Source: Lentisphaerota bacterium (GTDB lineage: Bacteria; Verrucomicrobiota; Kiritimatiellia; CAIQIC01; Lenti-01). Taken from it: a DNA stretch of 64,000 bases. A model generated the notes under the pieces. That model was not told the DNA's origin. It was given only the letters and a program-made list of their open reading frames with translations, and did no database searches. Location of the stretch: NCBI GenBank assembly GCA_012514035.1, contig JAAZBB010000072.1:1-64000 (forward strand). Reading direction: 5' to 3'. Positions 30,908-58,391 of the stretch are shown one piece after another. The position numbers and the translations under genes were made by a program. Numbering within the stretch: the stretch's first letter is position 1; every line of letters starts with the position of its first letter.

Positions 30908-32113
30908 ATGGCTCCGCTCCCCGTCAATCGCATGGGCGCCATGCGGGGTGTGGCCGGCTGCTTCATTCTGTTGCTCGCATCCGTCCTGCTTGCCGGCTGT
31001 GCAACGACCAGCCGCCCCCGCCCGGAGGAGAGCCGGCGCACCTTGCGACCCATCCCCCGGGTTCCGGCCGGAGATTCGCGCCCGGACCGCGCGCTGGTCG
31101 GTGCGTTTTTTGCCGCCAACGGCATCCGGCTCGCGCCGGCACAGGCGGAAGAAATCGTTCCGCCGTCCGCCCGGGCCGGCCGCTTTGACCGCGCCGCCTT
31201 CCGCCGGGCCGCCCGGCAGCACAACCGCCTGCTGCTGCCGATTCAAGCCGATCCGGCCACCCTCTGGACCGAACTCGGCCGGAACACGCCCCTGTTGGTT
31301 CTGCTGCCGGCGAACTCCTCCCGCCATCCCGATGTCCGTCCCGGCATGCCCGTTGCCTGGGATCGCGGCGCGGGGACCATTGAACTGCTGGACGGCACCG
31401 GGAACATCCAGACCATAGCGGAAGATGTATTTTTCAGCCGAGGTGAATCCCTTGAGCATACCGCCCTCTGCCTGTTGCGGCCGGGCCAACTGCCTCGCCG
31501 CCAGCCTACCCGGGAGCAGCAACTTCTGCTGGCCGATTTCTGGTTCGACCGGGGCTTTTATCGCCGGGCCGCGGCCGCCTATGAAGCGCTCCATGACCAA
31601 GCGCTGCGGGACCGCGTGAATATCGACAGCCTTGTCGGCAGCGGGAACGTTTTGGTCCGTCAAGGCCGCCCGCAGCAAGCCATTCCCTTGTTCGATTCCG
31701 CCCTTACTTTGGATCCCGGCAATCCCCGGATCCTGAACAATCTGGCCTATGCCATGCATCAGGGCCACGGCAACCTGGCCGCGGCCTTGTCCCATGCCGA
31801 AAAGGCCACCGAACGGGCTCCGGGCAATCCGATCTACCTCGAAACCCTCGGCAGCCTCTACCTTGATCTGGGAGACGCTCCGGCTGCTGCCCATTGCTTC
31901 GAACAGGCCTGGGCCCGGGCGGCCGGGCATGCCCCCGAAGTTCAACTTCCCATCCTGGACCAGCTTGTTCGCGCCTGGCTAGCCGCCAACCGGAGGGATC
32001 TCGCCTGGCAGGTTGCGGAACACCGGCGCCGCTCTTTCCCCGGACATCCTTTTCCCAAAGACATCCAGCTCGCTTTCCCCGCTCTGAGAAATCCCCTCCC
32101 CAACCGCCGATAA
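30908..32113 (+). CDS. TPR lipoprotein with degenerate C39-peptidase-like N-terminal region (paralog 1)
   Basis: LLLASVLLAGCATTS lipobox; TPR at C-term; paralogous to 32377-33636. Confidence 0.72.
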   Translation: MAPLPVNRMGAMRGVAGCFILLLASVLLAGCATTSRPRPEESRRTLRPIPRVPAGDSRPDRALVGAFFAANGIRLAPAQAEEIVPPSARAGRFDRAAFRRAARQHNRLLLPIQADPATLWTELGRNTPLLVLLPANSSRHPDVRPGMPVAWDRGAGTIELLDGTGNIQTIAEDVFFSRGESLEHTALCLLRPGQLPRRQPTREQQLLLADFWFDRGFYRRAAAAYEALHDQALRDRVNIDSLVGSGNVLVRQGRPQQAIPLFDSALTLDPGNPRILNNLAYAMHQGHGNLAAALSHAEKATERAPGNPIYLETLGSLYLDLGDAPAAAHCFEQAWARAAGHAPEVQLPILDQLVRAWLAANRRDLAWQVAEHRRRSFPGHPFPKDIQLAFPALRNPLPNRR

Positions 32114-32376: not shown

Positions 32377-33636
32377 ATGTCCAAAAATATCTATATGAGC
32401 ACAAGGCAGGTTGGCCATGTGGTCGGAACATATTGGGCGACCGGTTGGACTTGGATGTTGACCGCGGGCCTGCTTCTGGCGACCGGGACGGGCTGTGCCA
32501 CCTGCCCATCCGCCCGCGATGATCCGAACCGATGGGCTTTACGAACGGTGCCACAGGTTTTCGACTCCGATCACCCCGCAGATGCCAGACTGATCGCGGC
32601 TTTCTTCGAGGCCCATGGCATCCGGTTGTCCGATGCGCAGGTAGCTGACATCGTGGATGCCCCAGACGCCCGGGACGGCCTTGATCGGAATGCCCTCCGT
32701 CAAGCGGCACTCCGACATGGCTACCGGTTGCTGGCCCTCCGGGCAACCCCGCGCTATCTCAAGGACCAACTGGCCGGCAACCGGACCCTGTTGGTGTGGT
32801 TGTCGCCGGACCCGTCGTCTGAGCGCCCCGCGGAGGCGGTGATCCCGCTGGCCTGGGACCAGGCGCAACGGCGCATGGAACTGCTGGATGGGCGCGGCCA
32901 GATCCGGTCCATGCCGGAAGATGAATTCTTCTCCCGCCACGAACCGCGCAAGCACGCAGCCCTCTGCCTGGTCAAAACCAAGGGCGTGCGGCGGTCCGAT
33001 CCGCCCCGGGAACAGCAGATGCTGCTCAGCGATTTCTGGAACCCGCCTGGCTCCGCGCCCCAGGCGCAGAATGGCCCGGCGCACGATCCGCCAGTGTACC
33101 AAAGCAATGACCTGCAATCCATCATGACCTGCGGTCGCGCCCTGTTCCGGCAACGCCGCTACCGGGACGCCATCGGGGTTTTTGAGGCCGGCCGGCACCT
33201 CGCCCCGGACAATCCCGAGGTCCTCACCCACCTGGCCCATGCTCTGCTCATGGGAAACGGCGGAGTCATGACCGCGTTGCGCCACGCCAACAAAGCCCAC
33301 CGGCTGGCCCCTCATGATCCCTTCGTCTTGGAAACCCTCGGCAGCATCAATCTGCAACTCGGCCTCCCGGAGGAAGCGGTCCGGTATTTCGAACTGGCCT
33401 GGGCACGCGCCCTGCGCCAATCGGCCGAGGTACAGGTAGTGATCATGGATCAGCTCGTGCGGGCCTGGCTCGCCGCCGACCGGCTGGATCATGCCCGCCA
33501 AGTCGCCGAGCAACGCTGTCGCACCTTCCCCGACTATCCCTTGCCGCGCGACATCCGTGTGCAACTTCCCGGCCTATATGGTGCCCGCCGAACCGCTCCG
33601 GTTGCTCTCCAGAAACAGTTGGCGGCAGCAGAATGA
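32377..33636 (+). CDS. TPR lipoprotein with degenerate C39-peptidase-like N-terminal region (paralog 2)
   Basis: LLLATGTGCATC; shares blocks with upstream gene (LIAAFFEAHGIRLSDAQ, EDEFFSRHE..ALCLV, EQQMLLSDFW, VLETLGSINLQLG, LDQLVRAWLAA-type). Confidence 0.72.
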   Translation: MSKNIYMSTRQVGHVVGTYWATGWTWMLTAGLLLATGTGCATCPSARDDPNRWALRTVPQVFDSDHPADARLIAAFFEAHGIRLSDAQVADIVDAPDARDGLDRNALRQAALRHGYRLLALRATPRYLKDQLAGNRTLLVWLSPDPSSERPAEAVIPLAWDQAQRRMELLDGRGQIRSMPEDEFFSRHEPRKHAALCLVKTKGVRRSDPPREQQMLLSDFWNPPGSAPQAQNGPAHDPPVYQSNDLQSIMTCGRALFRQRRYRDAIGVFEAGRHLAPDNPEVLTHLAHALLMGNGGVMTALRHANKAHRLAPHDPFVLETLGSINLQLGLPEEAVRYFELAWARALRQSAEVQVVIMDQLVRAWLAADRLDHARQVAEQRCRTFPDYPLPRDIRVQLPGLYGARRTAPVALQKQLAAAE

Positions 33637-33742
33637 TCATTCCCCGGCGCCAGCGGCCTTGCGCCGAAACAGGCGGCGGCACACATTGGGCCGCAAACGG
33701 AAAACGGCAATGGTAAATTTTGAGAAAATGACGAAAGGGGGG

Positions 33743-33770
33743 TTGACATCCATCCGAGGTCGATTATAGT
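33743..33770 (+). promoter_or_regulatory. Sigma70-like promoter TTGACA-16-TATAGT
   Basis: TTGACA 33743-33748, TATAGT 33765-33770. Confidence 0.7.
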
Positions 33771-33776
33771 TGATGC

Positions 33777-33949
33777 ACAAGTTGGGGATGGTGGTTCCCT
33801 TTGGATCTTTGCCAGATCGATTTTGGACATCTTGCTGCTAACCACGCAGCAAGCAGATGGGATTACGAGGGTCCCCCCATACCTCCCCCATCTGCATTCA
33901 TCCGTGCCAGGCTACCCCCCCCCGATAATGCCTGGCACGGACCTTTTTT
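33777..33949 (+). ncRNA. Candidate structured small RNA
   Basis: Promoter upstream, consecutive hairpins (804-818, 831-853, 854-894 of 33xxx), terminator 33901-33949; no supported ORF; both flanking genes converge on it. Confidence 0.7.
33901..33949 (+). terminator. Rho-independent terminator, 12-bp stem plus six-T tract
   Basis: TCCGTGCCAGGC / GCCTGGCACGGA followed by CCTTTTTT. Confidence 0.88.
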
Positions 33950-55420: not shown

Positions 55421-56731
55421 TCATGGCTGCCCCGCCCGGCTTTTCAATTCCTTCAAACCGTACAGGAATCCAGCCAGCCGGTTCGGACGGGCGCGGCCGG
55501 TCCCGGCTGGCAGGACAAAGTCCGCGGTCCCATCCAACGCCGCCAGAATCGCATCATTCGGCACGAGCCGGTCCGGCAGGGTTGCCGGCCGGCTCCGATA
55601 GGAATCCACATCGCGCCGGACCAGCGGGACATCGCCCAGATACTTCTCCAATTCCGCCGGACCGGCAAAGACTCGTCCCGCCTTCCGATCCATAACCGTG
55701 TCGGCAATGTTGCCGCTGTCGGGATTGGTCACGAGCATGGCGTTCGTCAGCAGACACTCTTGGAGAACGTAACTGTAGGTCTCGGGACAGAGGGACCACA
55801 GGAAAACGATGTCAATATCCGCGAGGCGCAGCGCCCGGATCATGGCATCGGGCCCGTCCTGGACGACCGATACGGGGATGTTCCGGATTCCCGGAACCGG
55901 ATCCCGGACCCAGCCCAGATGCAGGAAATCATACGGCCATTTTTCGGCGGCGGCGCGGGCGGCCAGGCGGCGGAAGACCTCCCAGCCTTTATGTCGACCG
56001 GCGGCGCCAAGGAAGGCCAGGCGGATCGCCGCGGCCGGCGGCCGGGGTGAATAGACATTCGGACGGCTCCCGGCCGTCTGCAAATGCGGAATAATCTCCA
56101 CGCGGTCCTCGAAATCCGGAAACGTGCCCAGCCAAACGTGGCGGGCAGCCCGCGAGGGCGCCACCACTTGCAGCCGCTCCCTGACGGATTCCAATACCGC
56201 CCGGATGCGGCGGTGATGGTCCGGAGTCCAGCTGACACAGCCAGTGCATTTGGCCGCCGACGGCGGTTCCCGGCCGCAGAACTGTTCGCCGTTGCGCAGC
56301 AGGCTGGATTTCGGACACACCGTGGCATAATCGTGCAGAAACAAGCGAACCGGGAGGGGCATCTGGCACAGAAATCGCCGAACGCGGTCCAGGTTCAGGT
56401 TCCGCAAGTTGTGAAGTTGAATCTCCACGGGCCGCTTGCCCGCCCGCCCCCAGGCGACGATCAGGTTTTCTAGCGCTATTTCGTCATAGAATCCCGCCAC
56501 GGCCCCGTCGACCGTCACGCCCCAGTAACCGGACAGATGGCGGTCCAGCCAGCGGCTGCGGCGGGTGGTAAAGGGAAACAGGCAGACCGCTGAAAATCCC
56601 CCCTTGTCCAGCAGCTGCGTCTCCTCGCGCATGTAGCGCTCCAGCCCCCCCAGCGCACGGCGGTAATCGGCATAGGTGAGGAGCAGCACGTACCGGTCAT
56701 GCCGCATCCTTTGGATGAGCGACCTAGGCAT
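55421..56731 (-). CDS. Glycosyltransferase-like protein
   Basis: YVLLLTYADYRRALGGLERYMREETQLLDKGGFSAVCLFPF; cysteine cluster CPKSSLLRNGEQFCG..AAKCTGCVSW. Confidence 0.75.
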   Translation of the reverse strand: MPRSLIQRMRHDRYVLLLTYADYRRALGGLERYMREETQLLDKGGFSAVCLFPFTTRRSRWLDRHLSGYWGVTVDGAVAGFYDEIALENLIVAWGRAGKRPVEIQLHNLRNLNLDRVRRFLCQMPLPVRLFLHDYATVCPKSSLLRNGEQFCGREPPSAAKCTGCVSWTPDHHRRIRAVLESVRERLQVVAPSRAARHVWLGTFPDFEDRVEIIPHLQTAGSRPNVYSPRPPAAAIRLAFLGAAGRHKGWEVFRRLAARAAAEKWPYDFLHLGWVRDPVPGIRNIPVSVVQDGPDAMIRALRLADIDIVFLWSLCPETYSYVLQECLLTNAMLVTNPDSGNIADTVMDRKAGRVFAGPAELEKYLGDVPLVRRDVDSYRSRPATLPDRLVPNDAILAALDGTADFVLPAGTGRARPNRLAGFLYGLKELKSRAGQP

Positions 56732-58391
56732 CGGATGGCACGGGCTCCGATCCAGCGCGGGCCGCCGGCGCCTTCGGAATGTCCATGTCCCAGGCCCGCC
56801 CAATCAGCATCCACAAGGGAAAGGCCACCACGGCGATGGTGGCGGTGGGCACAATGACCGTCGTGAACGCAAGGAAAATCACGCAACAACTCAAGCTCAG
56901 CAACAAGCCGGTGAGGGGATATTGCAGCGGCAGGCGGGAAGACCGGTGGAAAAGTTTCACCGCTACCCAGGCCAGGAAGGAATAATATGTGGCTGCGCCC
57001 AGCCAGCCGAACTCGCCCATCAACGTGAAAAAATCCGAGGTCGGCGTGCCCAGAATGGATCCGCCGGAACCGCTGCCAGTGTTCCGATGGATCAGTTCTG
57101 CGCGCCGCAACGCCATCATTTCCGGAATGATGTACCGCCGGGCCAGGGGCGCCTTGGCTGCCGTCGCCTGGCTCGAACCGAACCGGCCCGGCCCGGCTCC
57201 CAGCAGGGGATATGGCACCAGATGGGGGAAATCCGCCGTGACCGCGTAAAAGATATCGCCTTTGGGCGTGTCCTGCGCGCGCATCAAGAGACGGCCGATT
57301 TCCCCCGCCCCAATGGTCATGCGCATGTAGATGCCGGCGAAGACCATGATGATGGCGCCTCCCAGCACCAGGCTGGTCCGGAGCCGAAGGGGGAAATGAG
57401 GATGAAACAGGAAGGGCAGCGCCGCCAGCGGGAACAACAGCAAGGCATGCTTGGTATCCGTCATGAATATCAGGTTGTAGCTGGCGATGATCAGGCATAG
57501 GACGACCGCCCAGCGCTTCCGTCGGGAGGCCAGATGACCGACGCTGACCCACCAGCCGGCAATCAGAAGCAGCGCAAACACGCATAGATAGCCGACGATA
57601 TGGGCACTGCCGAATCCCTCAGGGCCGAACACACCGCCGCTGTGATCGGGGTGGTACTTTGGCCACGGCCCCTTTTGCCACAATACGTTATAGAAGAACT
57701 GCATGGTGGCATACAGGATGTAAATCCACTCCCACCGGAGAAGCTGGTGTTCATTTTCAAACGTACAGGTCAAGCGGCAGAAGTACCAGAGAATATAGGA
57801 CTTCAGCATGATGAGCGTGACCTGCATGGAGGTAAAAGCCGATGGCTTGCCATTCACGTACCAGCTCAATGCGGCAATCAGACAGAAGGCCGCCGGGAAA
57901 ATCGTGGCCCCATCCAGCTTGCGCCGCTGGATCCAGTTCATGACGATCACGGCAATAAACGGCAGGAAGAACAATTCATCGACGAATCCCGGCAGGGGCA
58001 GGCCCAGGAGGCCCAGCAGCCGGTTGCCGGGCATCAGCATGAAGTAGAACATCATGAAGGCCAGCAGCCCCCGGGGCCGGTCCAGCAGCAGCACCCCCGC
58101 GCTGAACACAATCACCAGAAAGGCCCAGCTCAAGGGGGGCGGAATGCCGAACAGACCCGCGATGAAGAACATCACCGTCAGGCCGATCGCAAAACCCGCC
58201 ACGGCCAACCACCCTATCCACCGATAGACCGGGAACTGGTAGGACGTTTTCCGAAGGGCCGGCGCCTTTACCGCTGCCATGCTGCTGTCCATGAATCCGG
58301 CGGGCACTATGCCGTCCCCCCCGGCAAAAGACAAACCGTTTTCCACCCTGGCCCATCCCGGCACGCGGGAAACACGGTCCGGTTCAGGCAA
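56724..58391 (-). CDS. O-antigen ligase/Wzy-like polymerase
   Basis: Multi-TM protein, PPL..LLGAGPGRFG..; within glycosyltransferase locus. Confidence 0.78.
   Translation of the reverse strand: MPEPDRVSRVPGWARVENGLSFAGGDGIVPAGFMDSSMAAVKAPALRKTSYQFPVYRWIGWLAVAGFAIGLTVMFFIAGLFGIPPPLSWAFLVIVFSAGVLLLDRPRGLLAFMMFYFMLMPGNRLLGLLGLPLPGFVDELFFLPFIAVIVMNWIQRRKLDGATIFPAAFCLIAALSWYVNGKPSAFTSMQVTLIMLKSYILWYFCRLTCTFENEHQLLRWEWIYILYATMQFFYNVLWQKGPWPKYHPDHSGGVFGPEGFGSAHIVGYLCVFALLLIAGWWVSVGHLASRRKRWAVVLCLIIASYNLIFMTDTKHALLLFPLAALPFLFHPHFPLRLRTSLVLGGAIIMVFAGIYMRMTIGAGEIGRLLMRAQDTPKGDIFYAVTADFPHLVPYPLLGAGPGRFGSSQATAAKAPLARRYIIPEMMALRRAELIHRNTGSGSGGSILGTPTSDFFTLMGEFGWLGAATYYSFLAWVAVKLFHRSSRLPLQYPLTGLLLSLSCCVIFLAFTTVIVPTATIAVVAFPLWMLIGRAWDMDIPKAPAARAGSEPVPSDA

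Follow-up and report, generated by a model that had tools for sequence, protein, structure and literature searches.

A predicted small RNA family with two C-rich loops, confined to one family of Kiritimatiellae

The window analyzed here, that is, the whole stretch of 64,000 nucleotides, contains between two genes a short region for which an earlier note had proposed a free-standing, structured small RNA (sRNA). The question raised by this locus is whether such a gene exists and, if so, how its product might act. Judging from comparison with related genomes, the locus is a real, single-copy, independently transcribed, non-coding sRNA gene, transcription itself being deduced from the promoter, the terminator and covariation, and it is the predicted founding example of a new sRNA family confined to one family of Kiritimatiellae.

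Promoter, fold and covariation of the locus

The predicted gene (Table 1) lies between a TPR lipoprotein gene upstream and a convergent nucleotidyltransferase-like gene downstream, and its product would be approximately 172-173 nt long, with the start placed according to the -10 box. The promoter matches the consensus in 11 of 12 positions (TTGACA at 33743-33748, TATAGT at 33765-33770), is the only sigma-70-like site within 3 kb, and is preceded by an A/T-rich stretch (approximately 33714-33735), with A/T-rich DNA also found there in the relatives. At 12 of the 15 other loci, TTGACA-16/17-TATxxT is present at the same place; the promoter is more divergent in loci L036 and L037 and is truncated by a contig end in L024. 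The promoter, the stems of H2, H3 and the terminator, and the T6 run are located where the earlier note had placed them, and its coordinates agree with the sequence. No reading frame stays open across all members of the family, and the folding energy of the predicted transcript is -68.7 kcal/mol, compared with -49.7 kcal/mol for dinucleotide shuffles, none of 200 of which was as low.

Table 1. Predicted elements of the sRNA locus, in window coordinates
Feature	Position	Strand	Basis or remark
Promoter TTGACA-16 nt-TATAGT	33743..33770	+	sequence check; conserved in relatives
sRNA gene, predicted transcript	33777..33949	+	covariance model matches in family; fold z -4.8; covariation
H1, 5' hairpin GGGGAU/GUUCCC	33784..33799	+	folds of 5' domains
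boxA-like element GAUCUUU	33804..33810	+	motif in 13/16 5' domains
H2, CUUGCUGC-UAACCAC-GCAGCAAG	33831..33853	+	100% of cells paired
H3, outer stem CAGAUGGG/CCCAUCUG, inner stem GAGG/CCUC	33854..33894	+	pairing and covariation
C6 in H3 loop, proposed target-pairing site 1	33873..33878	+	kept in all members
Intrinsic terminator UCCGUGCCAGGC/GCCUGGCACGGA + U6	33901..33949	+	all cells paired
C9 in terminator loop, proposed target-pairing site 2	33915..33923	+	kept in all members

In the core of the RNA, which consists of H2, H3 and the terminator, 98.7% of the alignment cells are paired, compared with 89.1% for shuffled and no more than 39% for slid controls, and 16 of the 33 pairs show two-sided changes as against 6.3 in shuffles; none of 500 shuffles reaches either value, in a model-based alignment that is fitted to the structure and hence favours pairing. 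An unfitted MAFFT alignment (A1, with the 14 closer members only and the full-length structure) yields a covariation score of 0.154 versus 0.093, above every shuffle. The counts for helix 1 are partly spoiled by misalignment, and those for the 5' helix in alignment A2 take in bases of the L035-L037 promoters; for this reason, covariation is claimed for the core alone.

Two-sided changes are distributed over all three core hairpins: 4 of the 8 pairs of H2 (stems 33831-33838/33846-33853), 8 of the 13 pairs of H3 and 4 of the 12 pairs of the terminator (33901-33912/33930-33941, followed by T6). Fourteen members have the H2 loop UAA[C/A]CAC, and the remaining two, which are the most divergent, have UUCG or UACG. 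In H3, the outer stem (33854-33861/33887-33894) is paired in 100% of the cells and the inner stem in 91.3%; the inner stem is the most telling, with GAGG/CCUC, GGAG/CUCC and GGUGA/UCACC swapped among members. The terminator was missed by a simple terminator scan because its 17-nt loop exceeds the 8-nt limit of that scan.

The 5' domain and its boxA-like element

Upstream of the core lies an accessory 5' domain, present in most members, which includes the conserved hairpin H1 that the earlier note had overlooked and the sequence of which changes among members. L037 has a different hairpin in this place and L036 has none. The hairpin GATCT/AGATC (33804-33818) proposed in the earlier note is present in the window and is not conserved: the relatives keep UCUUU and have lost the partner strand. 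No other 5-mer of the otherwise drifting 5' region is shared as widely as this UCUUU, which belongs to a boxA-like element, with the family consensus G[ACU]UCUUU, the frequency of which (Table 1) far exceeds that in shuffles (mean 0.25, maximum 3), in a comparison that ignores shared ancestry. The element is located 23-30 nt upstream of H2 and is often followed by GAAA, with variable flanks.

This element resembles the boxA of rRNA leaders, the binding site of NusB-NusE. The rRNA leader of the same genome contains GCTCTTTGGAAAA and those of three other family genomes contain GCTCTTT or GTTCTTT, such family leaders continuing with GGAAAA or TGAAAA, so that the sRNA motif matches the rrn leader boxA of its own lineage, in the core only. 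The sRNA copy differs from the leader boxA in that it is situated in a short RNA that ends at an intrinsic terminator and has variable flanks. In L020 (G000:C56), the 16S rRNA leader shows a clear boxA, TTTTTGCTCTTTGGAAAATGG, approximately 190 nt before the mature 16S rRNA, and three further genomes of the family have kept it.

Of all parts of the sRNA, the boxA-like leader is the most unusual. By analogy with rRNA leaders, this putative element may, in most members, recruit NusB-NusE while the RNA is being transcribed. An sRNA with a leader of this kind would be connected to the Nus complex in a new way; a published genome survey of boxA left non-coding RNAs unconsidered (PMC5725501). An extended and rather speculative reading is that the sRNA has a complete leader of the rRNA type (A/T-rich upstream DNA, consensus promoter and Nus-loading boxA), such that its level would follow ribosome synthesis and its C-loops would damp G-rich messages without Hfq. 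We regard this as a doubtful possibility; if true, translation control would be coupled to ribosome production through the sRNA.

The 5' domain is missing in L036 and replaced in L037, which indicates that the boxA-like element is not required by every member. In L036 (genome G008), a promoter-like TTGCAC-17-TATGAT directly precedes H2 and the predicted RNA is only about 119 nt long, suggesting that the core without the 5' domain may suffice. In most members, 7 bp could form between AUCGGGG near the 5' end (GUUGGGG in the window, 33781-33787) and CCCCGAU of the terminator loop (33920-33926). This pairing, a possible long-range contact or self-occlusion, is barely stronger for the real combinations than across species (-12.1 versus -11.4 kcal/mol) and is absent in three members.

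C-rich loops and the predicted mode of action

Two of the three core hairpins carry a run of C in the loop in each of the 16 members, C6-C11 in H3 and C7-C10 in the terminator. The probability that the C6 run of H3 is unpaired is 0.75 in the window, 0.93-1.00 in 14 others and 0.52 in L036; for the C9 run of the terminator loop, it is 0.98 in the window and 0.87-1.00 in the relatives. The earlier note had pointed out the anti-Shine-Dalgarno core CCUCC, and a role of this motif as the acting element is not supported: most of it is paired within H3's inner stem, and relatives have CUCC or UCAC instead. CCUCC does occur in the 16S rRNA tail of the family, whereas the sRNA loops are plain C-runs.

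This layout is that of 6C/B11 (ncRv13660c, RF01066) of Actinobacteria, which has six C in loop 2 and nine in loop 3, the latter being the terminator and binding targets, and which acts by pairing of the C-runs with mRNA (PMC12395582). Both RNAs are highly structured, with two C-rich loops that hold six C in one hairpin and approximately nine in the terminator; two stem-loops, each with at least six C in the loop, as in 6C, are found in all 16 members. Two further systems act in a related manner. The sX13 RNA of Xanthomonas is Hfq-independent and its C-rich loops act on G-rich target motifs (PMC3771888); it is likewise structured, with three stem-loops, C-rich loops and G-rich targets, and differs in that two of its loops carry 4C motifs as opposed to the longer C-runs here and in that its host has Hfq. 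The two RNAs have no Rfam match in common. GsrN of Caulobacteraceae, which BLAST places in a single family, uses a C-rich loop to pair with katG at a G-tract (PMC5869019). The restriction to one family is shared with the sRNA described here, and the C-rich loop is the most conserved part of GsrN; in contrast to our case, this loop is at the 5' side rather than in the terminator, and GsrN is regulated by sigma-EcfG.

No match to Hfq was detected in any of the 17 family genomes and the control genomes were positive; for these draft MAGs, the absence of Hfq is strongly indicated, not absolute. The family does not show the Hfq dependence of the enterobacterial type. Its own promoter and terminator and its independence of neighbouring genes are as in trans-acting base-pairing sRNAs in general.

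Action in trans through the C-loops is the favoured reading, as all 16 members have the C-runs, mostly unpaired, Hfq was not found, and 6C/B11, sX13 and GsrN act in this way; with the layout of B11 and with sX13 and GsrN pairing through C-rich loops, pairing appears to be the best mechanism. Under this model, a near-consensus promoter would start the RNA of about 173 nt, H3 and the terminator would expose the C-runs, and these would base-pair with G-rich mRNA stretches directly and without Hfq, resulting in a translation block or altered stability. By this analogy, the sRNA probably silences messages by C-run/G-run pairing, as the unrelated 6C does in relatives of the tuberculosis bacterium.

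The earlier suggestion that such an RNA acts in trans through its C-rich loops is thus plausible and preferred, whereas a preference for start sites was not seen. By pairing energy, the C-loops match gene starts in the window no better than coding control windows, and of 20 sampled genomic runs of G8 or longer, none falls in the 60 nt before a called start; both tests depend on crude gene calls. The strongest C-loop pairing among the gene starts of the window is at 58307-58325 (minus strand), where GGGGGGG precedes a predicted GTG start by a few bases. The respective gene (56724-58307, minus strand), which has no Pfam match and adjoins polysaccharide genes, is a single weak candidate target.

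The C-runs could instead be conserved for a protein or for structure. In particular, the RNA might bind or titrate a protein, with the C-loops sequestering a C-run-binding protein or the boxA-like leader sequestering NusB-NusE. The retention of the C-rich loops and the boxA-like element while other sequence drifts, and the lack of enrichment of start-site targets, are compatible with this scenario; however, the C-runs vary in length (by the ranges given above) with stems and position conserved, a pattern at least equally suited to pairing, and the experimentally studied RNAs of such layout pair with mRNA. We consider protein titration improbable. The joint reading, namely, a free-standing, family-restricted sRNA with C-rich loops that pair with G-rich mRNAs without Hfq, is in our estimate reasonably likely.

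Distribution, neighbourhood and family identity

Of 57 genomes sampled in a DNA search, 15 contained homologues; one of these is the window's own, and all 15 belong to its family. The first covariance model, built from 14 of these homologues, identified one full-length copy in 16 of the 17 family genomes, two divergent copies scoring approximately 63-66 bits, and no further copies among 348 genomes of the class. With a second model, 394 genomes of the phylum yielded the known copies and one false match only; the large searches used stricter filters, such that very diverged relatives could be missed. Weak matches in G017 (E 0.053) and G494 (E 9.6e-4) were rejected, with C-rich loops missing and stems broken. 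The sole family genome without a match is G015 (family f1; 97% complete, 5% contamination), which could reflect loss or an assembly gap. No copy was found in a plasmid collection, and the exact terminator pattern has no match in virus contigs. Among named genomes, exact terminator matches come from MAGs that bear the labels Kiritimatiellae, Verrucomicrobia(-ota), Spartobacteria and Lentisphaerae and from one uncultured or unclassified bacterium.

Several close relatives have this TPR lipoprotein gene upstream on the same strand, and the 5' domain resembles an rRNA leader, which might suggest that the element belongs to a neighbouring gene as its leader, attenuator or 3' UTR product. This is very unlikely given the conserved promoter of the element itself and its strong terminator, followed in the window by a convergent gene. 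Both flanking genes are common mainly to close relatives, whereas the sRNA is kept in other genera with different neighbours; this loss of synteny further weakens a role in cis and implies that the sRNA is free-standing and independent of its neighbours. Conservation in 16 of 17 genomes, covariation above shuffled and slid controls, the kept promoter and the loss of synteny together bear out the earlier proposal of a free-standing, structured RNA with its own promoter and terminator.

An Rfam scan at gathering and permissive thresholds yielded no family at cut-off and chance matches only, in agreement with the earlier view that the RNA is not tmRNA, SRP RNA, RNase P RNA or 6S RNA, all of which are ruled out by the lack of a match. 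The sRNA of L029 scores 23.5 bits (E 0.56) with FsrA of Bacillus (RF02273), a C-rich RNA; identity with FsrA was rejected, the score being far below the cut-off of 80 and almost certainly due to base composition. Near the sRNA of G014, a long GC-rich hairpin (L035, 877-952) weakly matches an Rfam microRNA model, surely by chance.

We also considered a highly diverged true member of the 6C family, related by common descent or transfer. The C-rich loops occur in the same order, the terminator is similar, and the best match of the 6C model in the 17 family genomes is the sRNA of G008; nevertheless, at 25.9 bits (E 0.31), this match is expected from the shared architecture, none exceeds the 47-bit cut-off, and in the window's own genome the Rfam matches with E up to 10 do not include the sRNA, the only 6C match being elsewhere (contig C39). 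Moreover, 6C belongs to Actinobacteria whereas all confident matches to our models are inside one Kiritimatiellae family in another phylum, and no relatives linking the two were found; the 6C model has 75 positions compared with about 173 nt here; and the present sRNA has, in addition, H2 and the promoter-proximal domain with the boxA-like element. Membership in 6C is thus highly improbable, and the two-C-loop plan seems to have been reached independently of 6C/B11. The recurrence of this plan, without detectable Hfq, supports GC-strong loop pairing as a recurrent form of chaperone-free regulation. Few sRNAs have been catalogued in the PVC group, with 8 in a survey (PMC9029176), and our search of the literature yielded no work on sRNAs in Kiritimatiellae. 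The alternative of a conserved structure that is not transcribed or has no regulatory role is hardly credible, considering that a promoter and an intrinsic terminator flank the covarying hairpins in nearly every member.

Upstream of the sRNA, two adjacent genes on the plus strand (30908-32113 and 32377-33636) encode TPR-containing lipoprotein-like proteins of similar layout, which are probable tandem paralogues; a putative C39-like peptidase domain is discernible by eye in the N-terminal halves of both.
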